Source of the DNA: a virus | Reading direction: 5' to 3' (one strand) | IMG/VR virus record: IMGVR_UViG_3300035698_007841 | Span: 1 to 48,721 of that record | Length of the DNA stretch: 48,721 nt | In this document: one piece after another, positions 6,248 through 48,693 of the stretch | Layout of the letters: each line of letters starts with the position of its first letter | Numbering within the stretch: the first letter of the stretch is position 1 | Translations under genes and position numbers: made by a program | The notes under the pieces: model-generated | What the model was told of the DNA's origin: nothing | Seen by the model: only the letters and a program-made list of their open reading frames with translations | Database searches by the model: none

Positions 6248-7035
6248 AAATCATGTCGCGCCTTAAACGCATTTATCTGGTTATCCGACAAAGCTCTAGT
6301 TAAGCTCATCAACTGATCGTCCGGCAATCCCTGCGTAAGCCATTCAGATAGTAGCTTCTTAATCTGAAGTTCAGTAAGGCCACCTGTGGACATCGCACGG
6401 TTAACCTGCTTATACCAACCTGCATTAGATAGTGGCAGAGTACCAAAATCTCGTTTACAGAGCTTCTTAAAACCCATAACGATACGTTTGACCGCTTCAT
6501 TGTATTTAGTCTCATATTTATAGTCTTTCTTACCATCCACACGCTTGCCAAACGCCCCAGTGCGCGGCTCTCCAGTCTCTGGGTCTATACTTTCATCTAT
6601 CGTTATGTCATCCGAATAAGATGAAGATTCTTTTTTAGAATCTTCAATGGTACTCTTTGTAGTAGTCTCTGTAATAGAATGTGCTGACGTTTCCACCTGA
6701 CTAGTGCTGACGTTTCGACAGCACTGGTCAAGGCAATTCGACAGTACTGAAATGTTAATTTTAAAGAAATTACGAGCAGGAACTCCCCTCTTTTCAATGC
6801 TCACAATACCCAACTTAAGTAACATATCTTTAACAGTTCTCTGCTCTCGTTCAGTAAGTCCAGTCTCATCCTCCCAATCGCTCACAGTTTTGTAAAACCA
6901 TCCTTGAGGGTCTTTTGTGCGCTTGGACCAGTAAATACATTGAGATAGAAACAAAGCTCCATTAACCTTAAGACCTAATCGAACAAAGTCCCGGTTAAAT
7001 GCTATAGGCCTATCTGGTATAAGTATATTTTTCAT
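6244..7035 (-). CDS. Replication initiator-like winged-helix protein
   Basis: The 263-residue protein begins with PDRPIAFNRDFVRLGLKVNGALFLSQCIYWSKRT and continues WEDETGLTEREQRTVKDMLLKLGIVSIEKRG, which is the winged-helix form of phage replisome organisers. A Ser/Thr-rich linker follows, then a basic helical C-terminal part with WYKQVNRAM and LSEWLTQGLPDDQL, reminiscent of DnaD-like or O-like initiators. It sits between a sigma region-4-like gene and the replication enzymes. It probably recognises an origin or loads the helicase. The function is inferred from fold and context. Confidence 0.7.
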   Translation of the reverse strand: MKNILIPDRPIAFNRDFVRLGLKVNGALFLSQCIYWSKRTKDPQGWFYKTVSDWEDETGLTEREQRTVKDMLLKLGIVSIEKRGVPARNFFKINISVLSNCLDQCCRNVSTSQVETSAHSITETTTKSTIEDSKKESSSYSDDITIDESIDPETGEPRTGAFGKRVDGKKDYKYETKYNEAVKRIVMGFKKLCKRDFGTLPLSNAGWYKQVNRAMSTGGLTELQIKKLLSEWLTQGLPDDQLMSLTRALSDNQINAFKARHDL

Positions 7036-7247
7036 AGATCGTTGAGTTTAATATTTTCAATAATACGCAGACCTTTTCTAGAGAACTTAAGTACTTCATC
7101 GCGAGTCAACCCCAAAGCATTGCCGATATCCTGCAGCGTCTGCACTTTATTGTATGGTTTCAACCCATGCCTACGAAGTAGAATATCTACAATAATAGGC
7201 TTCAATCTAGATGCGACTTGATCAATTTGTTGTTGTGTAACTTTCAT
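7032..7247 (-). CDS. Sigma-70 region 4-like miniprotein
   Basis: The 71-residue protein aligns by eye with the helix-turn-helix of sigma factor region 4: ILLRRHGLKPYNKVQTLQDIG, then NALGLTRDEVLKFSRKGLRII, comparable to 'RFGL...TLEEIG..LGVTRERIRQIE.KALRKL'. There is no region 2 or 3, so it cannot be a complete sigma factor. It may bind promoter -35 DNA or the RNA polymerase flap as a transcription regulator, or act as a simple repressor. It overlaps the initiator gene by 4 nt. A large imperfect inverted repeat lies directly upstream at 7257-7348. Confidence 0.65.
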   Translation of the reverse strand: MKVTQQQIDQVASRLKPIIVDILLRRHGLKPYNKVQTLQDIGNALGLTRDEVLKFSRKGLRIIENIKLNDL

Positions 7248-7256
7248 AATTTTACA

Positions 7257-7348
7257 GACACTCCATACTCATTCTCAAGGTCGATCCAATAGACTCTAAC
7301 GCGTCACGAAACAGACTAAGAGAAATTTGAGAATGAGTAGGGAGAGTC
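7257..7348. repeat. 22-bp imperfect inverted repeat in intergenic gap
   Basis: Bases 7257-7278 and 7327-7348 are inverted copies with two mismatches, separated by 48 bp. A 10-bp direct repeat, AGACTCTAAC, occurs inside the loop (7291-7300) and just outside (7352-7361). The gap lies upstream of the sigma-like and initiator genes. It could be an operator, an RNA hairpin or part of a replication origin. Confidence 0.6.
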
Positions 7349-27330: not shown

Positions 27331-27726
27331 TTACTCGTTTGTGAATGCTGTGTAATACACATCCAATTGACCTGCTGTATACGCAGTAATCAATGGACAG
27401 ATAAAATCAAGACCATTGGTGTTGATTTCAATGATACGGTTGTCATCAGCGACAACAGCAATACCTGTATCTCCGTCAATGCTTGTACCATCTTCAAGAT
27501 CAGTAACCTCAATATTATCCCAACGATTTGTAGCACTCTGTGCTGAGTTGAAATCAGGCACGGTATCACCAATGGCTCCGCGAATAGAAGCGGTCATGGT
27601 AGACGTATCTGAAAAAGCAAGATGTAAGATAATGTGCTTATAATCGGTAACTCTCAAAGCGTTATCGATATTTGTATCACCTGCGGCGGTCATTAGACGA
27701 CCAGTTACTCTTCCTCTGCTGCTCAT
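27331..27726 (-). CDS. Small virion protein, beta-rich
   Basis: The 131-residue protein is beta-rich with a start MSSRGRVTGRLMTAAGDTNIDNALRV and a closing AYTAGQLDVYYTAFTNE. It resembles small head or tail accessory proteins, but I cannot name a family. It follows the four MptE/DUF115-like paralogues with a 4-nt overlap and precedes the coiled-coil gene by one base. Confidence 0.5.
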   Translation of the reverse strand: MSSRGRVTGRLMTAAGDTNIDNALRVTDYKHIILHLAFSDTSTMTASIRGAIGDTVPDFNSAQSATNRWDNIEVTDLEDGTSIDGDTGIAVVADDNRIIEINTNGLDFICPLITAYTAGQLDVYYTAFTNE

Positions 27727-28373
27727 GATTTTTTATGGTTTAATTTGAATAATAACTCTCCCGACTCATCTAGTTTATCCTTAAGAGTCAGATACGGCAT
27801 GCGATAGCCATAGATAACTCCATCCAAGTTTGCAAGAAGTGCTGACCTGCCTCCGTGAATATGGACACCAATGCCCATACCGATTGCAAGCCCGACCCAG
27901 AACTCCACACAAGCTTTATGAAAAACGAACTCACTCTGTGCTGATTGATTAACTCCCCATAGATCAATGCTCTTAACATCTGTGGCGATAGCATATGCGA
28001 TCATGTAAGTAATCGTATTAACAAAATATGGAACTTGGATCATTTCCATGATCTCTCGTATTGGGTAAGGCCTGTAAGTAGGTAGATCAGGATAGGCGTA
28101 TGTTGAAATGAAATCAATCTTATCGTCCTTAATCTTATCCTTAAGAGTCTCAAGAGTGCATGGCACTTGCTTGTTATCTTTCCAATAAAATCCATTAGCA
28201 ACGGCTGACCGTCGCTCCATTGGGTCTGTCATGAAGAGTTTGTCGAGCTTCTTAACGGTGAACATGCCCATATTGAGTGTCCATATTTCGTCAGCTTTAT
28301 AATCACATTGTTCGAATCCGGGGCCCTGCCCAAGAATGATTACGCTCTTTCCTTTGTTTTCATCATTTATCAT
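27723..28373 (-). CDS. MptE/DUF115-like Rossmann protein, paralogue 4
   Basis: This 216-residue protein is the last of four tandem paralogues. It starts KSVIILGQGPGFEQCDYKADEIWTLN, has DKLFMTDPMERR, then YFVNTITYMIAYAIATDVKSIDLWGVNQ and VEFWVGLAIGMGIGVHI. The set of a glycine-rich first strand, a D near MTD or MDD, and a helix followed by 'I.LWGV.Q' resembles the DUF115/MptE-like fold used by 6-hydroxymethylpterin diphosphokinases and by Maf flagellin glycosyltransferases. Here MTDP replaces the MDD of the other copies. Function unknown. Confidence 0.55.
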   Translation of the reverse strand: MINDENKGKSVIILGQGPGFEQCDYKADEIWTLNMGMFTVKKLDKLFMTDPMERRSAVANGFYWKDNKQVPCTLETLKDKIKDDKIDFISTYAYPDLPTYRPYPIREIMEMIQVPYFVNTITYMIAYAIATDVKSIDLWGVNQSAQSEFVFHKACVEFWVGLAIGMGIGVHIHGGRSALLANLDGVIYGYRMPYLTLKDKLDESGELLFKLNHKKS

Positions 28374-28993
28374 AGATCAATATCGATGTTAAATTCCTCT
28401 TTTAATTCGTGCTGTGTTCTATTATAACCGTATAACAGTTTCCTGTCAGGCTTCAATAGTGCGCTTGGCCCCTCGATATGAAGCTCAATGCCCATCCCAG
28501 TGACCAGACCAATCCAGAATTCAACACCTCGCCTCTCTCGTAGATACTCAATTGAGCCTGTTTGATTGATGCCCCAAAATGTAATCTTGTCGACATCATC
28601 AAGCCATAAAGCATAAGCGAGCATAAAACAGATCGTATTGGTGTAATAAAATACTCCAAATAACTCAACGATCTTCTTAAGAGGAAAAGCTTTGACATTA
28701 TCAAGCTCAGGATACTCATATGATGTGATCAACTCAGCCTTTGATTTGTTAATCACTTCAATGAAATAATCAAGTGTGTACGGTACTTTATGAGGGCTAT
28801 TAGGATCGAATGACTGCATATGCATGATGTCGTCCATATTGAACAGCTTATCAATGCGCGCATGCTCCATCTCCTGAAACTTCTTATTCATGAGCATCTT
28901 AGCAATACCCCAGACTTCAACATCCTTTCCATATTCTTCGAAAGGACAGTGATGCCAACCTGCTCCGCTGCCTAGAATTACAATGTGTTTCAT
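28370..28993 (-). CDS. MptE/DUF115-like Rossmann protein, paralogue 3
   Basis: The 207-residue protein shares the family core: IVILGSGAGWHHCPFEEYG, DKLFNMDDIMHM, YYTNTICFMLAYALWLDDV, KITFWGINQTGSIEY and VEFWIGLVTGMGIELHIEG, followed by SALLKPDRKLLYGY. Start and stop overlap its neighbours by 4 nt each. The conserved NTIC and ATG-GI blocks mark it as a close relative of paralogue 1 (29589-30167). No membrane segment. The substrate is unknown; a nucleotide-sugar or pterin-like ligand would fit the fold, but this is inference. Confidence 0.55.
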   Translation of the reverse strand: MKHIVILGSGAGWHHCPFEEYGKDVEVWGIAKMLMNKKFQEMEHARIDKLFNMDDIMHMQSFDPNSPHKVPYTLDYFIEVINKSKAELITSYEYPELDNVKAFPLKKIVELFGVFYYTNTICFMLAYALWLDDVDKITFWGINQTGSIEYLRERRGVEFWIGLVTGMGIELHIEGPSALLKPDRKLLYGYNRTQHELKEEFNIDIDL

Positions 28994-29592
28994 ATGCCTT
29001 TTTCTAAAGTTTCTACTAAGTCTCTAGCGAACTGAAGTGGTTTGTCCCCACGTTGTGCACGGTTCTTTGTAAAACCGTATGGCTTATCAAAGGTGTTTTT
29101 GAGCAATGACGAATCTTTTTCCACAAAGATATCAACACCAAAGCCTCGAGCAAAACCAAGCCAGAACTCCATACCTCGACGTTCTTCAAAGAACTCCCAG
29201 AATCCACGTTGACTCACTCCGTAGAAGTGGATCTCATCGACTCCCTCATAAATTGCCAGAGCAATCATGTATGAGAATGTGTTCGTGAAGAAATCTGTCT
29301 CGAAATAATCAGAAACCTCTTTTAAAGGATACTCAATGGAATTAGGGATGTCATCATACGCTTTCACACAATAAAATGGTGAATGCCACATCTTGATGAC
29401 TTCCTTGAATCTTTCAAGGCTAATCACACCGTTTTGGACATCTGCAAGCGTTTCTATGTCGTCCATGAGGATTATACGGTCTACACGCTTTAGACCCTCC
29501 TGTAGGACAGTTTTGCCAAAAACCCATGTCTCCATATCGAATGGGCACTTGTCCAATCCTTTACCTCCTGCAATGATAGCTATTTTTCTCAT
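28990..29592 (-). CDS. MptE/DUF115-like Rossmann protein, paralogue 2
   Basis: The 200-residue protein is the most diverged copy in its N-terminus (IAIIAGGKGLDKCPFDMETWVFG) yet keeps DRIILMDDIETL, FFTNTFSYMIALAIYEGV, EIHFYGVSQRGFWEF, MEFWLGFARGFGVDIFV and SSLLKNTFDKPYGF. Overlaps of 4 nt on both sides tie it to the same operon. The retained MDD, TNT and YG(V)xQ residues suggest that all four copies keep the same ligand pocket. Confidence 0.55.
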   Translation of the reverse strand: MRKIAIIAGGKGLDKCPFDMETWVFGKTVLQEGLKRVDRIILMDDIETLADVQNGVISLERFKEVIKMWHSPFYCVKAYDDIPNSIEYPLKEVSDYFETDFFTNTFSYMIALAIYEGVDEIHFYGVSQRGFWEFFEERRGMEFWLGFARGFGVDIFVEKDSSLLKNTFDKPYGFTKNRAQRGDKPLQFARDLVETLEKGI

Positions 29593-30167
29593 GATTCTTT
29601 ATCCATTAATTGATCGATAGTTTCGACATATCCATAAGGATAGCTCATGTTTGGATTCTTGAGTAACGCAGTCATGGTCTTGAAGTTAATCTTGACCCCT
29701 AGACCTGCTGCCATACCGAGCCAAAACTCGACACCGGCTTTCTCAGCTGAATACTCAAACGCAGCCATCTGGGCCACTCCATAGAAATCTATATGAGTGA
29801 CTCCTTTCCAAAGAGCATACGCAATCATGTAACAGATTGTGTTAGTGAAGTAGGGAACTCGATATCTATTAACGATCTCCTTGAATGGGAATGCTTTGCT
29901 TTTAACAATCTCATCGCGGACATGAGTAGAAATATAACGGACATTTCTGTCGTTAATATTTGCTACAAACTCGTCTTTAGTAAAATCTCCCCTGCGTATA
30001 GTCAATAGGTAATCTATATCGTCCATCGAAAATAACATATCTACTTTCGTAGGTGGATGATCGAGCATGACCATCTTAGCGACAGCCCATATTTCTCGAT
30101 CCGTTGACTTGAATGGGCATGATTGCCAATCAGGTCCTGAACCTAAAATAATGATTTTTCTCTCCAT
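29589..30167 (-). CDS. MptE/DUF115-like Rossmann protein, paralogue 1
   Basis: The 192-residue protein opens the four-gene array. It shows KIIILGSGPDWQSCPF, DMLFSMDDIDYL, PYFTNTICYMIAYALWKGV, HIDFYGVAQMAAFEY and VEFWLGMAAGLGVKINF. The shared 'GSGxxWxxCPF' signature with paralogue 3 may include a functional Cys. About 90 bp of structured RNA (30200-30245) precede its ATG. Placement between capsid and tail genes suggests high late expression, either as virion components or as enzymes acting on virions. Confidence 0.55.
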   Translation of the reverse strand: MERKIIILGSGPDWQSCPFKSTDREIWAVAKMVMLDHPPTKVDMLFSMDDIDYLLTIRRGDFTKDEFVANINDRNVRYISTHVRDEIVKSKAFPFKEIVNRYRVPYFTNTICYMIAYALWKGVTHIDFYGVAQMAAFEYSAEKAGVEFWLGMAAGLGVKINFKTMTALLKNPNMSYPYGYVETIDQLMDKES

Positions 30168-31265: not shown

Positions 31266-32273
31266 TTAAGCTACATCGTCACCTGTTGAGATGTGTACCC
31301 ACTTACCGTCAACGATAACGAGTCCGTATCCTGCGCGGTTTCGGAACTCCCAGTCATCTGTCATCACATCCTCAGCGTTTGAATTGGCGCTTGGGTTGAT
31401 TAGATGTGGCTCTTCCCATACTCCAAGATAAGCTGAAGTGAATGCAGACGAAGCAATACCCCAGTATCTTCGCTTTGCTGTGTCAACTGCACCTGCAGCT
31501 GTCGTAGCAATTCGAGGAAGTTTCACCAACTTGTACTTCGCTTTGTACACGTTAGTTACTCCTGAGTTAGGTGCTTCTGGAGCTGCGATTGAACGCAAGT
31601 ACTCTAGAGCTGTGTTCTCAACCTGAGGATCATCAGTGATCCAAAGTAGATCGAAAGGCACAGTCATCTTCTCTCCGAATTGGTTGAGGGTATTCTCAAC
31701 AGCTTGTCGCTCCATTGCTTCTAGAGCTCCACGTGATAGCTGTGGGTTACCTGCCAACCTGTTACGGTAAGTAGATGAAGAACTTCTAAGAGTGTGAGCT
31801 GTAGCAAATAGAGCAAGTCCATCCCCCACAGTCGTACTAATGGTACGTCCATCCCTATCAGTATAAGAAGTGACAGTACCGAACCCGATTTGATGTGACA
31901 TGTCGAGGTCCATAGTGTTGGGCCCCTTGCGTCCACCCCCAGTTAGTCTTCCGACTACCTCAGGATACTTGTTCTCATGACGCATTTCGTATGTGATCCC
32001 AATGTTCTCGGCAACTCGGAACTTAGTCATAGTTTTGGTGAAACCTTGCTGTACTTTCGCACGCTTTGCTTGGTCTCCCTCACCTTTGTATGACAAGTAT
32101 TCGTTGTCGTCAATCGATGAGAACTCTCGTGTATTACCAGAATTCTCAGAGATGTTAAGAACACGGAACATACCGGAACTTCGAGCAAATGTCGGAATCG
32201 ACATCTTAGCCTTAAGCCAGATGACTTGTGCCAACTTTGTGAAGTCGCTAAGTGAAATTGTGTTTAATTCCAT
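31266..32273 (-). CDS. Major capsid protein
   Basis: The 335-residue protein lies in the expected place after scaffold and decoration genes and has HK97-like features: an N-terminal helical stretch (ISLSDFTKLAQVIWLKAKM), MRHENKYPEVVGRLTGGGRKG, DMSHQIGFGTVTSYTDRDG and a C-terminal WEEPHLINPSANSNAEDVMTDDWEFRNRAGYGLVIVDGKW typical of capsid P-domain ends. It assembles the icosahedral head. The ATG at 32273 has no Shine-Dalgarno sequence but is directly preceded by a small TTAAC/GTTAA hairpin. Confidence 0.85.
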   Translation of the reverse strand: MELNTISLSDFTKLAQVIWLKAKMSIPTFARSSGMFRVLNISENSGNTREFSSIDDNEYLSYKGEGDQAKRAKVQQGFTKTMTKFRVAENIGITYEMRHENKYPEVVGRLTGGGRKGPNTMDLDMSHQIGFGTVTSYTDRDGRTISTTVGDGLALFATAHTLRSSSSTYRNRLAGNPQLSRGALEAMERQAVENTLNQFGEKMTVPFDLLWITDDPQVENTALEYLRSIAAPEAPNSGVTNVYKAKYKLVKLPRIATTAAGAVDTAKRRYWGIASSAFTSAYLGVWEEPHLINPSANSNAEDVMTDDWEFRNRAGYGLVIVDGKWVHISTGDDVA

Positions 32274-32374: not shown

Positions 32375-32818
32375 TTAAGTGGAGATTACAAACGATGGGT
32401 TGAATGAGTTAACTGCTGATTTAGCAAGAACTCCAACTACCTTAGTAGCTGAAATAACTCGTGTAACCAAGAACACTTTGTCAGTAGTAACATTCATATC
32501 AATGTTTTCACCGAGAGTATCTAGGTCACGCAATCCACCGACATCTGAACTCGCTGCTCCACCATCCGAGTCAGTGTCTACTTCCCACTCCATCCACATC
32601 TCCAAAGGAACTTCAACTGCGATAGGATCGCTAGTTGTATCCGTTGTAGCATGAGAATCGCGAGAAACACCCACGATCATCTCGTTTGTATCAGAAATAC
32701 AAGGTCGAATACCACCGGAGCTGTTTAGCTTTAGAAACTCATTTGCAGAATATGCAACAGAAGGGGTCTTAGGCAGGTAGATTAACTTTGTTCTACCTGC
32801 ATGTCTTTTTACACTCAT
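32375..32818 (-). CDS. Capsid decoration-like protein
   Basis: The 147-residue protein is beta-rich: KRHAGRTKLIYLPKTPSVAYSANEFLKL, then IRPCISDTNEMIVGVSRD and VPLEMWMEWEVDTDSDGG, followed by DKVFLVTRVISATKVVGVLA. This is the pattern of small trimeric decoration or head-stabilising proteins encoded right before the major capsid gene. No Shine-Dalgarno sequence precedes the ATG. It would be the first gene of the transcript from the promoter at 33127-33156, with a leader of about 300 nt. Confidence 0.6.
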   Translation of the reverse strand: MSVKRHAGRTKLIYLPKTPSVAYSANEFLKLNSSGGIRPCISDTNEMIVGVSRDSHATTDTTSDPIAVEVPLEMWMEWEVDTDSDGGAASSDVGGLRDLDTLGENIDMNVTTDKVFLVTRVISATKVVGVLAKSAVNSFNPSFVIST

Positions 32819-32968
32819 ATTATATAAGGGTTAAAAGGTTCTAATAAAGTCTCGTCACAGTACTTCGTGACAAGGGCCTGTTTGCGGTACAGGTAGACCC
32901 AATTACTCTTTCGAGCAAAGCATTGAAGTCCAAGTCGAGTGCACTCCAATGGCTCTGCTAAAAACAAA

Positions 32969-33097
32969 GCGGTGCATCGTGCACCTAATTCAGAATCCAA
33001 GCTCCTGTTATTCAAGGATAACGATAGACCTGCCGAAGCCTGCCATCACTAACCCTAAATAAAGGTAAGACTCTGAATAAGATGTACGATGCACCGC
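32969..33097 (-). promoter_or_regulatory. Structured leader with mutually exclusive hairpins (attenuator or riboswitch-like)
   Basis: In the minus-strand RNA, the 12-nt arm at 33097-33086 pairs exactly with 32980-32969, and a 7-bp helix inside joins 33078-33072 with 32994-32988, closing about 75 nt. The 3' arm of the long helix also pairs locally: GGTGCA (32985-32980) with TGCACC (32976-32971) around a CGA loop, followed by GC and the T-rich TTTGTTTTT. That local form looks like an intrinsic terminator. So the long helix would block the terminator. The enclosed domain has further small hairpins, including GTTAT/ATAAC. Confidence 0.55.
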
Positions 33098-33126
33098 GAG
33101 AGTTTCGTAGATGCTTACTATCTAGA

Positions 33127-33156
33127 ATTATATACCACAACTATCAATGAACACAA
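33127..33156 (-). promoter_or_regulatory. Sigma70-type promoter for head genes
   Basis: The minus strand has a perfect TATAAT (33127-33132), an 18-bp spacer and TTGTGT (33151-33156). The start of transcription would be near 33120. The promoter lies in the non-coding gap 33016-33171, directly in front of the structured leader. Confidence 0.65.
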
Positions 33157-33171
33157 GAGTTATCAACACCA

Positions 33172-33369
33172 TCACTCAATACCCTTTAATTCCGCATCCA
33201 AATCGAGGTCATTAAACAGAATGACTTTGTGAAAGCGTTGAGGGATACCATCACGAACTTTGAGGGTAATCTCCCCAAACTTAACCTTTCGTATCCCCAG
33301 AATCAGGGCTATCTCCTTCGGATGAAGAAGTATCACTCTGTCCCCCACTTGTATCTGTACTTTTTTCAT
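33172..33369 (-). CDS. Small protein upstream of the head promoter
   Basis: The 65-residue protein reads KVQIQVGDRVILLHPKEIALILGIRKVKFGEITLKVRDG, a compact beta-type fold like small SH3 or OB barrels. It overlaps the 162-residue gene by 89 nt in another frame, which is large for this genome. Its non-repetitive composition and the good hydrophobic pattern favour a real gene. Function unknown. Confidence 0.45.
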   Translation of the reverse strand: MKKVQIQVGDRVILLHPKEIALILGIRKVKFGEITLKVRDGIPQRFHKVILFNDLDLDAELKGIE

Positions 33370-42948: not shown

Positions 42949-43845
42949 CTATTCCACATTAATAGGCGTTTTATCGCCTAATGTCTTAGCGACTTTCTCA
43001 GCAATATGAAGTTCTGTCATGTGTGAACTATCGATCGTACAGCCACCAATGTGATTAGTAATAATGAGATCGTCATGCTCTCGTGCGTATCCAATTAAGT
43101 CTTCACGATCATCTTCGCGAGTTACATCGACCGCTGCACCTGCGATTTGATTATCCCAGAGTGCTTTGCGTAAAGCTCCTTTTTTAATTATGTCACCTCG
43201 GCTGATATTCACTAGGTATGCAGACTCTTTCATGACCTCAAACTCCTTAGCACCAAAACTATCCCTTGTCTGGGCATTCAATGGGAGCGAGAGCAATATG
43301 ATATCAGCATATCTCAATATATATTCTCTGCTTTGGAGGGTTTGAGTTGTGTTAATATCGTAAGCAATTACATCCATACCAAAAACCTTGCCGTAAATCT
43401 CAATCTTGCGACCGATACGGCCGTATCCAATTATCCCAAGAGATTTACCTTTCAAATCCTGACCTCTATAAGTAGAGCGCGGCTGTGGTACGTCAACAAA
43501 ACTGAACGCCTTTCCATACTTACGAAAACAACTGATAATCAAACCGAATGCATGTTCAGATGATGCCGGGATTTCTGCAGTAAAGGGATCACCTTGAAGT
43601 GAAATAATCCTTATACCTTTATCAAATGCATATTTAATATCTACATGATCATGACCTGTTGCATTAAAAGCGATCACCTTGAGGTTGGGTAGTGAATCAA
43701 TCATGTCTTTAGTAACAGGATCAAGGCGTACAACAAGCACCTGAGTATCGGGATGTATGTCTGGACCAAATGTTACTGCACCAAGATCATAGTAAACCTT
43801 GAGAGCCTTAGGGTTATAATCTCTATCGTCTATTATATGAATCAT
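42949..43845 (-). CDS. D-2-hydroxyacid dehydrogenase
   Basis: The 298-residue enzyme has the NAD-binding motif GYGRIG (140-145) and the catalytic set R216 (ISRGD), an acidic residue near 244 (VTRED) and H265 (TNHIGGCT). The family oxidises or reduces 2-hydroxy acids with NAD(P). It overlaps the neuA-like gene by 4 nt. Dehydrogenases of this type occur in surface-sugar clusters. It may act on a sugar-acid intermediate here. Substrate not known. Confidence 0.88.
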   Translation of the reverse strand: MIHIIDDRDYNPKALKVYYDLGAVTFGPDIHPDTQVLVVRLDPVTKDMIDSLPNLKVIAFNATGHDHVDIKYAFDKGIRIISLQGDPFTAEIPASSEHAFGLIISCFRKYGKAFSFVDVPQPRSTYRGQDLKGKSLGIIGYGRIGRKIEIYGKVFGMDVIAYDINTTQTLQSREYILRYADIILLSLPLNAQTRDSFGAKEFEVMKESAYLVNISRGDIIKKGALRKALWDNQIAGAAVDVTREDDREDLIGYAREHDDLIITNHIGGCTIDSSHMTELHIAEKVAKTLGDKTPINVE

Positions 43846-44429
43846 ACATTTAAGAGCTTCTCGGCTCGTTTAAAGTCTTCTAATGTGTTTATATCGATAC
43901 TTGCCCTAACATCCATCACAATGCGCGCGCTATCACCATTTTCAGGGAAAATATAGCACTCTCTACTGAACAGCCGTGCAGTAGATACCATATAAATTGC
44001 TGCATTCCGCCTATTTTGAGTATCTACACTAATGACAGAATCTCGTGGATCTTCCTCAAATGTGGCCAAAGCGTCATTGATATGCTCCCAAGTCCTGAAA
44101 GGAGAGGTAGGTTGTAAGATCATTACAGCATCGTAACTCATGCGATGATTAAGCTTCATCCACTCCACAGCGTGCTGTATGACTGGCAAATGAGGTGTAC
44201 GAGCCTGACACAACCATTCTGGGCGTGGGAATCCATACAAACGCAGGTCCTTAATCAGAGTATTGTGAATATCCATGTCATCAGTTGAAATGACAATATC
44301 AGTAAGTGACGACTTCTTAGCTTCGTCTACGGTCCACTGATAAAGTGGCTTATGACCAAACATCATCTTATTCTTACCCTTAAGACGTTGAGAACCTGCT
44401 CGAGCTGTTATTATTCCTAGTGTTTTCAT
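43842..44429 (-). CDS. neuA: CMP-nonulosonic acid cytidylyltransferase (NeuA-like)
   Basis: The 195-residue enzyme starts LGIITARAGSQRLKGKN, the nucleotide-binding signature of CMP-sialic acid and related synthetases, then has VISTDDMDIH, LQPTSPFR and SIDINTLEDFKRAEKLL. It activates a nonulosonic acid as CMP-sugar. It is about 30 residues shorter than common bacterial forms, mainly in the dimerisation loop region. Together with NeuB- and NeuC-like genes it forms a nearly complete pathway. Confidence 0.9.
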   Translation of the reverse strand: MKTLGIITARAGSQRLKGKNKMMFGHKPLYQWTVDEAKKSSLTDIVISTDDMDIHNTLIKDLRLYGFPRPEWLCQARTPHLPVIQHAVEWMKLNHRMSYDAVMILQPTSPFRTWEHINDALATFEEDPRDSVISVDTQNRRNAAIYMVSTARLFSRECYIFPENGDSARIVMDVRASIDINTLEDFKRAEKLLNV

Positions 44430-44430
44430 G

Positions 44431-44643
44431 TTAACAGTCTAGATAAACGCTAGTAAACCTTAAACTCCACCAACTCCAATTATATACGATTGAACATTCC
44501 TCCTTGTCAGAAATCCATTCTTTTTCAATAAGCCTATCAACTCGACTATTTGCTTCAAGAGTCCATGCAATAGCAGGACTAAGACGAATCCAAGCGAACA
44601 TAAGAAAGAGTACCACTATTGCTATTTTCCATTTATTATTCAT
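44431..44643 (-). CDS. Small membrane or exported protein
   Basis: The 70-residue protein has an N-terminal hydrophobic segment (WKIAIVVLFLMFAWIRLSPAIA) with a possible signal cleavage after AIA, and a short Trp-rich exported part with two cysteines (EECSIVY; VYLDC at the end). It lies between the neuA-like gene and the 3D-domain gene, 1 nt from each. It could be a cell-surface accessory protein. Confidence 0.55.
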   Translation of the reverse strand: MNNKWKIAIVVLFLMFAWIRLSPAIAWTLEANSRVDRLIEKEWISDKEECSIVYNWSWWSLRFTSVYLDC

Positions 44644-44644
44644 A

Positions 44645-45007
44645 TTACAAAATTACTAAAGCCCCCTGAACACCCCAATCCCATGCATCATCGGTGTCAG
44701 CAAACCAAATATCAAAGTGCTCGCATCCATATCGACTATTCATGCGGTCTTGCACTTCGTATATCTTATTTCTAATCTCGACCTCTGTACCAAAATCTAA
44801 ACAGTTGTTAGCTACGATCCCATCACGGACCCTCTCATTGCTTGCAGTAATGAATGGGCTGTCGTCAGTCTGTCGTTCCTCTGAACTATATCCACTAACC
44901 ACTCCACGAATAGTGACGAGAGGTTCGTGCGCGCGAGTATAAGAAGTGAAGCTCGGCAGTGCGAAGATATAAACTATTAGTAAGCTGTAAATGATTAAGC
45001 GTTTCAT
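44645..45007 (-). CDS. Secreted 3D-domain protein
   Basis: The 120-residue protein has a signal peptide (RLIIYSLLIVYIFALPSFTSYTRA) and a 3D (double-psi beta-barrel) domain: SGYSSEERQTDDSPFITAS, RVRDGIVANN, FGTEVEI, QDRMNSRYG and HFDIWF with conserved aspartates D62, D87 and D99. This domain is related to RlpA and MltA barrels that bind or cleave peptidoglycan glycan strands. The form 'ITAS...VRDGIVA' resembles Parcubacteria proteins that I recall. It might remodel the cell wall during infection. Confidence 0.75.
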   Translation of the reverse strand: MKRLIIYSLLIVYIFALPSFTSYTRAHEPLVTIRGVVSGYSSEERQTDDSPFITASNERVRDGIVANNCLDFGTEVEIRNKIYEVQDRMNSRYGCEHFDIWFADTDDAWDWGVQGALVIL

Positions 45008-45300
45008 ACCGTTATTAATTTATTCTCAATTAAATACTCAACAGCTTTCGCCATTGTGTCAGCAGGATTATGTAATTTCTCTGTGAGGTGTAAGCGGTTA
45101 TAGGGCATTTGTTCGTAATCAGTAAGTATCCCCTGCGTAGCTCTTAAAGTGCCTGACTGTGCAATCATCTGTTTTTGCACCTCTTTCAGATATTCAATAT
45201 CAGTTTCATCCAACATACCAACAAACTGAAAAATCATCGTTATTTTTCCTGCCGTAATTTGAGCTTGTTTTTTATCTACCTTTAAATTTTTTTCTGACAT
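45004..45300 (-). CDS. Hypothetical protein
   Basis: The 98-residue protein is helical and soluble: KKQAQITAGKITMIFQFVGMLDETDIEYLKEVQKQM, then AKAVEYLIENKLI at the end. It overlaps the neuC-like gene by 19 nt and the 3D gene by 4 nt. No motif is recognised. Confidence 0.5.
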   Translation of the reverse strand: MSEKNLKVDKKQAQITAGKITMIFQFVGMLDETDIEYLKEVQKQMIAQSGTLRATQGILTDYEQMPYNRLHLTEKLHNPADTMAKAVEYLIENKLITV

Positions 45301-46208
45301 AATTCTATTAGCTTATTAGTTATATGTAAACTTGTGTCTGGCTTAAAGTAAACATCAGACTGGGGAAAACTCCCCATATTTAGGAGTAAATCAGTAGTAT
45401 GTATGATCATGTTGCTATCATAGGGCACTGACACCACGTTTTTGGGCTTCAGGCGGTTGTTCTGCCGAGTTCCGATGTCTACCACCGGAGTACCGAATAT
45501 GGACGCTTCTTTGAGGAATGAGGACGAATTACCGATCAAGCAGTTCGCATGCTTCAATAAAGAAAGATACTCAAGTGGTTCGTATGACTCGCCTTTGTAC
45601 TCCATACCATAATCACTATTCGAAGTGATGTTCACAATTTTATACAAACCATCGAGGTGCTCTATGACTCCTCTTAGGATACTTCCATCCTCTTCCGGGA
45701 ATGGATGAAAAGCTATCATTACATACGGCTCATCGACAATCCTCTTAAGGCCACTCTCATTGGCCGTATGAGCAAACTCTACATCAAGAGAACCGAAGTT
45801 AAATGTATGATCAGGATCAGTACCCATTCGAATCAAACGACTATACGCTTCGTTGTTTGTAGCAAAATGATAATCAGAGAGTTGAGTAATTGCATGACGT
45901 ACCTTGTTATCAACTACTCCTGACTGATCGCCACCCTCGATGTGGGCCACCTTAACACCTGCATAGACTGCGACCATAGCCATAGGCAGCATCTCAAATC
46001 TATCACCGCGAATAAGAACTAGATCAGGCCTGTGATCGTGGATCATCTTTGAGAACCAACGACCATGGCGAGATGCTTGGTACTCCATGTTCCCCTCCTT
46101 TTTTTCTGGTTCAACTATAACCACATCGAAATGCTCTGAAAGCATATCGAGTAAGGTACTCTGGCGAGCCAAATGTACGCGGTTAGTTGCCGGAAATAAA
46201 ATCTTCAT
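45282..46208 (-). CDS. UDP-GlcNAc 2-epimerase (NeuC/WecB type)
   Basis: The 308-residue enzyme shows the family signatures LIRGDRFEMLPMAM, KVAHIEGGDQSG, VRHAITQLSDYHF, FNFGSLDVEF, HPFPEEDG and LIGNSSSFLKEASIFGTPVVDIGTRQ. Hydrolysing NeuC enzymes make ManNAc from UDP-GlcNAc; related ones act on 2,4-diacetamido sugars for legionaminic acid. The length is about 60 residues below typical. It overlaps the methyltransferase gene by 26 nt. It supplies the hexose substrate for the NeuB-like synthase. Confidence 0.88.
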   Translation of the reverse strand: MKILFPATNRVHLARQSTLLDMLSEHFDVVIVEPEKKEGNMEYQASRHGRWFSKMIHDHRPDLVLIRGDRFEMLPMAMVAVYAGVKVAHIEGGDQSGVVDNKVRHAITQLSDYHFATNNEAYSRLIRMGTDPDHTFNFGSLDVEFAHTANESGLKRIVDEPYVMIAFHPFPEEDGSILRGVIEHLDGLYKIVNITSNSDYGMEYKGESYEPLEYLSLLKHANCLIGNSSSFLKEASIFGTPVVDIGTRQNNRLKPKNVVSVPYDSNMIIHTTDLLLNMGSFPQSDVYFKPDTSLHITNKLIELCQKKI

Positions 46209-46890
46209 CGTTCTTAAAATAACCCCTACTTGCTAAGTCATCGAATAACGTGTCACGCATTTCTATCATTCCATCCTTTGGTTCACCGATTCTCATCAAT
46301 ATAGTGACTCCATCTGTAGACTGAATGACTTTAAAATAACTACTAAAAAATCTAAGCATGACTCTGACCATTTCCCTTCTGCCGTCAATATAGAATACCG
46401 TACCCTCCTTAGTCTTATCAATCAGATGAAAGAAATCTCCACCGGGTAGATCAAATAGATAACCGACTGCCTTATCCTCACCCTGTTGCATATAGGCAGG
46501 GCCCGGACCATCGATAACCACAAGATCGTAATCGTCCTCTGGCAATTCCTTGTATGTGAGAAAATTACGATCATGAATACCCCTAATACTGCACACTGCC
46601 ACAGGCTGAGTATGAAAGGTAATCTTGTGCTGTAACTCCTCAGGTATGAGCCGTTTTGCCAGTGCTGTGCACTTAGGAAAAGCTTCGACCGAATGCACAT
46701 GACCATCCGCCTCCATAGAATTAGAGATCAACGCAGTAAGACAACCCACTCCACCGCCTAACTCAAGGACTCTCTTGTTTTTGTTAGCCCTAATGTAAGT
46801 ACCTAGAGTCTCGTAATCACCGAAATCAACAATCCACTCTCCATGCTTTGACTCCTGAAATATGCTATATAGTTTTTTTAATTCCATCAT
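46183..46890 (-). CDS. Class I SAM-dependent methyltransferase, glycan-cluster type
   Basis: The 235-residue protein has RVLELGGGVGCLTALIS as SAM motif, an acidic VEAFPKC, and DLVVIDGPGP after strand 4. This arrangement is typical for FkbM- or O-antigen-linked methyltransferases. It lies directly upstream of the NeuC-like gene (26-nt overlap). Methylation of a surface sugar is a fair guess. Confidence 0.7.
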   Translation of the reverse strand: MMELKKLYSIFQESKHGEWIVDFGDYETLGTYIRANKNKRVLELGGGVGCLTALISNSMEADGHVHSVEAFPKCTALAKRLIPEELQHKITFHTQPVAVCSIRGIHDRNFLTYKELPEDDYDLVVIDGPGPAYMQQGEDKAVGYLFDLPGGDFFHLIDKTKEGTVFYIDGRREMVRVMLRFFSSYFKVIQSTDGVTILMRIGEPKDGMIEMRDTLFDDLASRGYFKNDEDFISGN

Positions 46891-46892
46891 AA

Positions 46893-47507
46893 CTATTCCT
46901 CTAGTTCCCCACGACTTATCATCTGTCGTCTAACAAACAACACAACTTTCTCGCTTGATTCAGAGAGTCTCGCGGTCTCACCGACAGTAATCCCACGAAC
47001 GAGTAAACTCTTTATATGTTTACTTCGTTCGTCCGCACGTTCCTCTGAGCCTGCCACCGAGCCCTCCACAGGCTCCTCTTCTGAGCCCACTTCCTCACTG
47101 CAAGATGCTCTGGTATGTCCTTCCTTGCCACAATTACCACAAGTAAACACACCCTTCTTTTGTGGTTCTTTCTTGTCATCTAGTATGCCTTCCTTCTTTG
47201 CAGTCGATTTAATATTGTAGATAGTCTGAGTACTGACCTTGTGTTTATCTGCAATATCTTTAGTTTTCATTCCTGACTTAATGTCTTTAATGACATCGGC
47301 AAGATTATAATCAGTCTTCATACCTCTTGCTGCACATCCGTCTTTCCTCTTTTTTGGCACTATTTCAATCTCCTCTTCCTCCTCTTCATCACTGACCATC
47401 TCGACCGCTCCATCAAACTCAATCACATTATCTAATTCCCCATCCTCAAAAAACTCAGCGAGTATGAGCATCTCCAATTCTTTGTTGTAATAATATTTCT
47501 TAATCAT
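46893..47507 (-). CDS. Helix-turn-helix protein with CCHC zinc knuckle
   Basis: The 204-residue protein has an acidic patch (DEEEEEEIEIV, 40-50), a helix-turn-helix MKTKDIADKHKVSTQTIYNIKS (80-101), and a CCHC knuckle, C123-C126-H131-C136 (CGNCGKEGHTRASC). A second HTH-like segment is ITVGETARLSESSEKVVLFVRRQ near the C-terminus. CCHC knuckles bind single-stranded RNA or DNA and are rare in phages. I read it as a transcription or post-transcription regulator of the cassette. Confidence 0.6.
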   Translation of the reverse strand: MIKKYYYNKELEMLILAEFFEDGELDNVIEFDGAVEMVSDEEEEEEIEIVPKKRKDGCAARGMKTDYNLADVIKDIKSGMKTKDIADKHKVSTQTIYNIKSTAKKEGILDDKKEPQKKGVFTCGNCGKEGHTRASCSEEVGSEEEPVEGSVAGSEERADERSKHIKSLLVRGITVGETARLSESSEKVVLFVRRQMISRGELEE

Positions 47508-47508
47508 G

Positions 47509-47685
47509 TTACTTTTTTCTGGTTACTATACTATTAAATATTCTTAATGCGATCGTTGTCGCTGAATCCTTGTGGTATCTCTTGTGCATTCGACTGCGGT
47601 GTGCCCTGTACTGACAGAAAGTGCGGTCACCAAGATATGTATACTTGATACCATCACACTGCAGAATATCACACAGATGTTTCAT
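47509..47685 (-). CDS. 58-residue basic Cys-containing protein
   Basis: ATG at 47685 to TAA at 47509 encodes a 58-residue basic protein (HLCDILQCDG, RTFCQYRAHRSRMHKRYH), with several Cys and His that could bind a metal. It overlaps the zinc-ribbon gene by 17 nt and ends one base before the start of the zinc-knuckle gene, so the spacing is operon-like. Confidence 0.55.
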   Translation of the reverse strand: MKHLCDILQCDGIKYTYLGDRTFCQYRAHRSRMHKRYHKDSATTIALRIFNSIVTRKK

Positions 47686-47827
47686 TTTTGTGAATAAACA
47701 TTAATCTCTCAGCTTTCCTACGATTAAGAAATGACTGAAACTCTAAACAATCTGAACAAAATAACTCAAAATGAGGTCCGACTTCCCTCACTCTTAACTC
47801 TTTCGATTTACAGAACTTACAAAACAT
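47669..47827 (-). CDS. 52-residue zinc-ribbon protein
   Basis: ATG at 47827 to TGA at 47669 encodes a zinc ribbon with FCKFCKSKE and FCSDCLEFQ, followed by a basic helix (FLNRRKAERLMFIHKN). It starts 2 nt after the stop of the neuB-like gene. Together with the next gene it fills the 320-bp stretch between the larger genes. Confidence 0.65.
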   Translation of the reverse strand: MFCKFCKSKELRVREVGPHFELFCSDCLEFQSFLNRRKAERLMFIHKNETSV

Positions 47828-47829
47828 AT

Positions 47830-48693
47830 CTATGATTTTCTGAAGTTCTCATGAAACGCTAACTCCTCAGGATACAGAATCTTGTCATTGCTGCCGTATG
47901 CGAATAGCTCAAGCTCCTCATCCCGGATATGCTCAATGTACTCTTTCATTTCATCGAATCCCATTGCCATGTGATGATCAGGACCAAATGCCTGCTTATC
48001 AAGCGTGAAGTGCTTCTCAATCAATGTAGCACCTAATCTGACAGCCATAGCTCCTATCTTAGTAGACTGTGAATGGTCAGAGAAACCGATCGGAGTGCTT
48101 GGATACCTAAATCCAAGAGCCTTAACCATATTAAGATTCAACTTATAAATAGGGCATGGATAAATAGATGTGCAATGTAAAACTGCGAAATCTGTATTAG
48201 CAGCATGTAATAAGGCAAATGCATTATCCGACTCCTCAACAGTACTCATACCACTAGAGATAATGACAGGCTTCTTCTGTGCAGATACATAATGGAGTAA
48301 ATCATCATTCACAATATCAGCTGAACCGATCTTAAAGATATCAACTAAATCACTAATCTTTTCAGCAGCCATGCGTGACATAGGAGTGACACAAAATACC
48401 AACCCCAAGTCCTTACAAAACTCAGCGAGTGGCTTCCAAAAATCATCATATGGAGTAAGACGCTCATTCATCTTGATCCAATCATAACGCTTCTCACTTC
48501 GAACATACTGCTCATCTTCAAATACATGAATCTGAAACTTAATTACATCGACACCGGCACGTTGAGCAGATCGTGCAAGGTTCTTAGCTTCATCAAGACA
48601 CAAAAGAATATCAGCATCCTCTTTCATGATGAAGTTCTTACCTGCATCCGCAATGACTAAAACTTTTTTATTGTTAAAATAGCTGTTTGGCAT
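47830..48693 (-). CDS. neuB: Nonulosonic acid synthase (NeuB-like) without SAF domain
   Basis: The 287-residue enzyme is the catalytic TIM barrel of the NeuB family: VDVIKFQIHVFEDEQ, VFCVTPMS, IFKIGSADIVN, IISSGMSTVEE, VLHCTSIYPCP, GFSDHS and IEKHFTLDKQAFGPDHHMA. It condenses phosphoenolpyruvate with an N-acylhexosamine. The protein ends in FHENFRKS, where standard enzymes (about 340 residues) continue into the SAF/antifreeze-like domain, so that domain is absent. The gene is complete in the window. Across the join it follows the methyltransferase gene with a 37-nt overlap. Confidence 0.93.
   Translation of the reverse strand: MPNSYFNNKKVLVIADAGKNFIMKEDADILLCLDEAKNLARSAQRAGVDVIKFQIHVFEDEQYVRSEKRYDWIKMNERLTPYDDFWKPLAEFCKDLGLVFCVTPMSRMAAEKISDLVDIFKIGSADIVNDDLLHYVSAQKKPVIISSGMSTVEESDNAFALLHAANTDFAVLHCTSIYPCPIYKLNLNMVKALGFRYPSTPIGFSDHSQSTKIGAMAVRLGATLIEKHFTLDKQAFGPDHHMAMGFDEMKEYIEHIRDEELELFAYGSNDKILYPEELAFHENFRKS

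Follow-up and report, generated by a model that had tools for sequence, protein, structure and literature searches.

We analysed the capsid region of a phage, hereafter W, in a 48,721-nucleotide stretch of viral DNA (the window). The genes that could be assigned in the window lie nearly all on the minus strand and are tightly packed. The capsid unit starts with a gene for a 147-aa capsid decoration (cement) protein (32375–32818, minus strand), followed by that for the 335-aa major capsid protein (MCP; 31266–32273, minus strand). Neither of these two proteins of W has a database match, W's own MCP giving none in PHROG. The AlphaFold model of the 147-aa product (pLDDT 82) matches capsid decoration proteins, with capsid proteins of Haloferax tailed virus 1, Pam3, Sf11 and T1 as the best matches, and the decoration protein of one relative matches Pfam Phage_cement_2. 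Phrog_1650, 'major head protein', was matched by 7 of the 13 aligned 335-aa members (best E 2.9e-4). As the structure model of W's MCP was poor (pLDDT 38), the capsid identity rests on the PHROG matches of its relatives and on the cement-protein fold; together they bear out the proposal of an earlier reading of the letters alone (the sequence-only reading) that the leader described below lies ahead of capsid genes. Just after the capsid region (27723–30167) are four adjacent genes whose ~200-aa products resemble one another in sequence (IILGSGPGW...CPF start) and which are apparently tandem paralogues; two of them were searched against Pfam and had no match. Positions 42949–48693 hold a nonulosonic (sialic-type) acid gene set (NeuB-like protein, UDP-GlcNAc 2-epimerase, cytidylyltransferase and 2-hydroxyacid dehydrogenase) and also code for a methyltransferase and a helix-turn-helix protein.

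The decoration gene is preceded by a gap of 353 nt (33171–32819), one of the four largest in the window, whose start is marked by the stop of a 65-aa ORF (33172–33369, minus strand); in the close relative L004 a 64-aa ORF lies at the same place. The leader region is non-coding in W, with stops in every frame. A 66-aa TTG ORF spanning the leader was rejected as a gene, because its reading frame is broken in L004 and in a second close relative, L017. Inspection of the sequence reveals a perfect −10 element, TATAAT (33127–33132, minus strand), separated by an 18-nt spacer from a weak −35-like hexamer, TTGTGT (33151–33156, minus strand). The hexamer agrees with the TTGACA consensus at 3 of 6 positions and is therefore missing from the output of the consensus promoter scan. 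The promoter that the sequence-only reading had placed at 33127–33156 thus stands as regards its −10 element, but has a poor −35.

A rod hairpin and its U-run in W and two close relatives

Folding of the leader gives a rod-like hairpin of 53 bp in 129 nt (32969–33097, minus strand), the base of which abuts a U-run, TTTGTTTTT (32960–32968, minus strand), that starts directly at the rod's end. Over 138 nt the rod has a minimum free energy of −68.9 kcal/mol (z −10.0), a value reached by none of 200 shuffles, and the z-score for the whole leader is −8.1. The rod is the longest and first-listed inverted repeat of the 48.7-kb window; the second-listed one, with 22-nt arms that are 91% complementary, is at 7257–7348, in the gap upstream of the gene at 7032–7247. 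The outer arms, GCGGTGCATCGT (33086–33097, minus strand) and ACGATGCACCGC (32969–32980, minus strand), each of 12 nt, pair perfectly at just these coordinates, as had been proposed, and their 12 bp form the base of one near-continuous rod running from 33097 to 32969.

Within the 3′ arm is nested a small hairpin, GGTGCA-CGA-TGCACC (32971–32985, minus strand), which alone has an energy of −8.6 kcal/mol and is followed by GC and then by TTTGTTTTT. The 3′ arm can therefore indeed fold by itself into an alternative terminator-like stem with its U-run. The hallmark of an intrinsic terminator, a GC-rich stem that closes immediately before a U-run, is present in W and kept in L004 and L017. Directly 3′ of the U-run, alignment of the three sequences shows a second conserved hairpin (32915–32958, minus strand; apical ACTCGACTTG), predicted in all three, with the tip ACTCGACYTG, and their comparison a small GNRA-loop hairpin, CTC-GAAA-GAG (32906–32915, minus strand). 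When a DNA pattern for the second hairpin was searched, the only leaders matched were those of L004 and L017; the stretches matched in other contigs were, by eye, not capsid leaders.

L004 and L017 were found by MCP searches (79% and 71% MCP identity, respectively), and both have the −10 TATAAT, the rod and the U-run at the same place as W. The rod is 129 nt long in W, 118 nt in L004 and 63 nt in L017, with unrelated interior sequence; this type of rod was seen in these three sequences only, all of them related. In the outer helix, both sides of pairs 5, 9, 10 and 11 changed among W, L004 and L017. In the small hairpin, both sides of pair 3 changed, and pair 4 became G–U in L004. A T-to-C/A-to-G change in L017 is common to the 5′ arm and both halves of the 3′ arm, turning GGTGCA/GGTGCA/TGCACC of W into GGCGCA/GGCGCA/TGCGCC. 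The counterparts of the small hairpin are GGTGCATGATGTACC in L004 and GGCGCATAGTGCGCC in L017, those of the U-run TTTTCGTTTTT and TTTTTG, and those of the GNRA-loop hairpin, with paired changes, TCC-GAAA-GGA and GUUC-GCAA-GAAC, respectively. In the stretch 3′ of the U-run the sequence itself is conserved across the three. Compensatory changes in both helices, which the sequence-only reading had named as what would speak for them, were thus found, and both helices are supported by them on three related sequences.

Two helices sharing one strand therefore exist, as the sequence-only reading had it, but they do not form the terminator/antiterminator pair that it took them for. Since the rod and the small hairpin abut the same U-run, both would be expected to terminate, and neither fold leaves the U-run lacking an adjacent stem. 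Minimum-energy folds of growing transcripts, which are not kinetics, had the rod as their default, closed at the U-run. Imposing the small hairpin instead takes ~12 kcal/mol, and excluding both helices ~33 kcal/mol, a loss that no rival fold of the W leader freeing the U-run was found to compensate.

Capsid leaders across the wider family

Two more-inclusive MCP searches extended the set to ~60 loci, nearly all with a gap ahead of the decoration gene; 58 gaps were usable. An initial terminator scan that allowed branched folds had an inflated null, and a test for a U-run after the single best hairpin was confounded by stems running through A/U flanks; both were replaced by unbranched, U-anchored scans. 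With these, a strong unbranched hairpin closed at a U-run was found in 26 of the 58 leaders versus 11 of 290 shuffles. In W and 16 relatives (17 of 58 leaders, against 0 of 290 shuffles) TATA(A/C)T lies 30–72 nt upstream of a strong U-tailed hairpin. TATAAT itself occurs on the coding strand in 24 of the 58 leaders and on the other strand in 13 (shuffles, 9.4±3.0); for its TG-extended form the count is 12 versus 1.5, with 1 on the other strand. As the hairpin sequences differ widely among relatives, it is the layout that is kept, not the letters. A DNA search of phage records gave no match, and an Rfam search of seven relatives (E up to 3) gave one match, judged to be chance.

About one-third of the relatives have, by eye, a strong hairpin in this position that lacks a U-run (L025, L034, L037 and L006 among them). 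In others the rod is replaced by a tRNA-Met (CAT) gene (L018:3325–3396, L020:3353–3427, L021:3363–3434 and L022:3191–3262) or by a reduced tRNA-like fold with acceptor and T arm only (L023, L033 and L073). Termination is thus not universal in these leaders. In addition, many relatives that are not of the W clade have an A-rich 5′ flank and a U-rich 3′ flank, so that some of what counts as U-run signal could belong to a paired stem.

A second element, motif M, is present in most other relatives between the hairpin and the start codon of the decoration gene. It is a 5-bp hairpin with a purine-rich loop and an A-rich tail of the GUUAAAAAA type, often in two copies and enclosed by a helix (for example L006:3398–3430, L036:3429–3458 and L040:3423–3454, and ~25 other capsid leaders). 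A covariance model (R1) built from 12 hand-picked copies matched many leaders that were not in the seed, and nearly all of its matches were on the coding strand and in the capsid leader. In 28 records searched whole, the checked matches at E < 0.05 sit in leaders, and most genomes searched have one site per phage genome. The five pairs of the motif show 44 double-change cells, and the covariation score of 0.71, which leans upward because the alignment was fitted to its structure, compares with 0.24±0.03 in shuffles (0 of 500 reach 0.71) and with at most 0.12 in slid versions. The enclosing helix scores 9.7 in true combinations and 6.2±0.9 in mismatched ones, of which 0 of 300 were as high. A generic scan for a helix, a hairpin and an A-tail was overall no better than shuffles, and the covariance model is therefore needed to see the motif. 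Motif M was not above chance in W, L004 and L017, and it had no match in Rfam among the seven relatives scanned; it is a candidate new RNA family.

Two smaller elements recur in these leaders. A mini hairpin, CYR-AAGAA-YRG, lies just 5′ of the U-tailed hairpin in L042, L043, L045, L015, L073, L010, L009 and L007, its 3′ half overlapping the 5′ arm of the terminator; the pairs seen are CTG/CAG, CCG/CGG and CCA/TGG, suggesting covariation and a possible protein site. A hairpin with an AGTCGA-containing loop recurs 3′ of motif M, shortly before the start codon of the decoration gene, in L027, L037, L047, L021–L023, L068, L069, L076 and L077.

Read-through, processing and other readings of the leader

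The reading we favour, with a probability of roughly 0.5, is that the element is a promoter-proximal intrinsic terminator heading the decoration/MCP unit, which late transcription must read through, that is, an attenuator in the broad sense. We infer that transcription starts near 33120 and that the nascent RNA zips into the rod; as the last arm emerges, the GC-rich stem would close directly upstream of the U-run. Most polymerases would then release near 32960, leaving a short RNA of ~160 nt as the default product, and the nested hairpin of the 3′ arm would offer a second route to termination if the 5′ arm were occupied. Because of this release, the capsid mRNA would depend on read-through, owing either to partial efficiency of the terminator or to a late-acting antitermination factor from phage or host. 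It is probably at this hairpin that capsid production is gated, since the relatives keep the layout with quite different sequences.

The arrangement resembles pR′–tR′ of bacteriophage lambda, where an intrinsic terminator stands shortly after the promoter and ahead of late (head) genes. With lambda Q, which is loaded at a promoter-proximal pause (PMC7171158), RNA polymerase gets past the terminator that precedes the late genes (PMC4825925). Control of phage late (head) genes by a promoter-proximal terminator is thus known in principle (PMC4825925); the sequence-only reading knew of no described switch of its kind controlling phage head genes. The sequence architecture of a promoter-proximal terminator ahead of late structural genes, as in lambda, was found in W and 16 relatives. 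Full late-gene expression needs read-through in lambda and would need it here. There are also differences: one unit covers lysis, head and tail genes in lambda, whereas the putative terminator of W lies between the upstream head genes and the decoration/MCP pair, and, unlike tR′, the stem of W reaches 53 bp and has a second stem nested in it. A Pfam search of 33 window proteins, a set in which most phage proteins are matchless, found no antiterminator of the Q family (PF06530, PF03589 and PF06323) or of the N-like type. Should our reading hold, promoter-proximal terminators would gate the capsid genes of an entire phage group, and an antitermination system should therefore exist in these phages or their hosts and could be searched for; the many relatives with conserved layout and different sequence are a ready test set.

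The rod might instead be a structure that protects the 5′ end of the capsid mRNA or is processed by RNase III, the U-run being secondary. A long near-perfect stem is a natural RNase III substrate, which the 53-bp rod with its few mismatches resembles, and mRNAs of T7-type phages carry RNase III processing stems. These share with W a long near-perfect stem between co-directional phage genes; the rod of W differs in lying just after a promoter and in ending at a U-run. Strong structure at the 5′ end is found in relatives with or without a U-run, and tRNA-Met or tRNA-like folds in its place would fit RNase P/Z. It is these exceptions to termination that lead us to keep processing or 5′-end protection as a serious rival, although we consider it rather less than probable: it accounts neither for the U-runs that close the stem in 26 of 58 leaders (shuffles, 11 of 290) nor for the conservation of the nested terminator hairpin within the W clade.

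It is improbable, in our view, that promoter and terminator make a stand-alone small RNA (~160 nt in W and ~100 nt in L017) that works elsewhere and lies ahead of the capsid genes only incidentally. The compact promoter-to-terminator unit with its fixed spacing would suit such an RNA, for which IsrK of prophage Gifsy-1, a phage RNA that is both a small RNA and a read-through mRNA, is a precedent (PMC4825925). IsrK, too, combines a phage promoter and a terminator with a message farther downstream that arises by read-through (PMC4825925); it is, however, not upstream of capsid genes, and its action is in trans, on the message that its own read-through yields. Between relatives the hairpins have hardly any conserved sequence, which would be unusual for a base-pairing small RNA, and the constant feature is the location ahead of the decoration gene. 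We give very little credence to the rod being a plain terminator of the upstream head genes with a TATAAT nearby by chance: the genes are co-directional and the gap divides the upstream head genes from the decoration/MCP pair, but the spacing of the −10 motif to the hairpin recurs in 17 leaders and in no shuffle, and TATAAT is in excess on the coding strand.

Least likely of all is a true switch, in which a ligand, a protein or the ribosome would set termination by choosing between rod and small hairpin. In its favour, the two helices are conserved and share a covarying position, and the 3′a segment, which forms wobbles in the rod, pairs by Watson–Crick rules in the small hairpin, as though selection acted on both; but both states close at the same U-run. 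The aptamer-like enclosed domain of about 75 nt in the sequence-only reading turned out to be part of the rod, and the varying length and sequence of the rod interior speak against an aptamer. No conserved ligand-binding domain was found within the helices, no Rfam family matched the W leader (at the gathering threshold and at E up to 10), and no short conserved ORF covers the arms as in leader-peptide attenuators. Attenuation riboswitches of the Rfam classes share with W a long structured 5′ leader with a terminator-like hairpin; here there is no conserved aptamer or antiterminator state. The leader thus does not look like a metabolite-sensing switch.

It is possible, though we hold this only tentatively, that the capsid leaders of this group are an undescribed class of regulatory RNA, built of a promoter and a terminator-like rod or a tRNA-like fold, to which most relatives add a covarying domain of hairpin and A-rich tail before the decoration gene; read-through and mRNA processing by an unknown factor would control capsid synthesis, and the W clade would be a dual-stem version. 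The related phages offer a lead to an ultra-small bacterium as host. The only relative with an organism name is a contig in a Woesebacteria (Patescibacteria) bin, and among 287 genomes of that phylum the capsid protein was found in that known bin only (0 of 286 others). As it rests on one binned contig, the host group is a lead only. To our knowledge, phages of Patescibacteria are almost unstudied, and the literature looked at yielded no account of a regulatory RNA from them. In the Woesebacteria bin contig (L060/G029:C20) the capsid gene is divided near residue 79, its two parts lying ~1.2 kb from each other, and no Rfam intron was found at the split. In L077, a group I intron (RF00028, at gathering score) lies inside the major capsid gene (L077:4454–4646).
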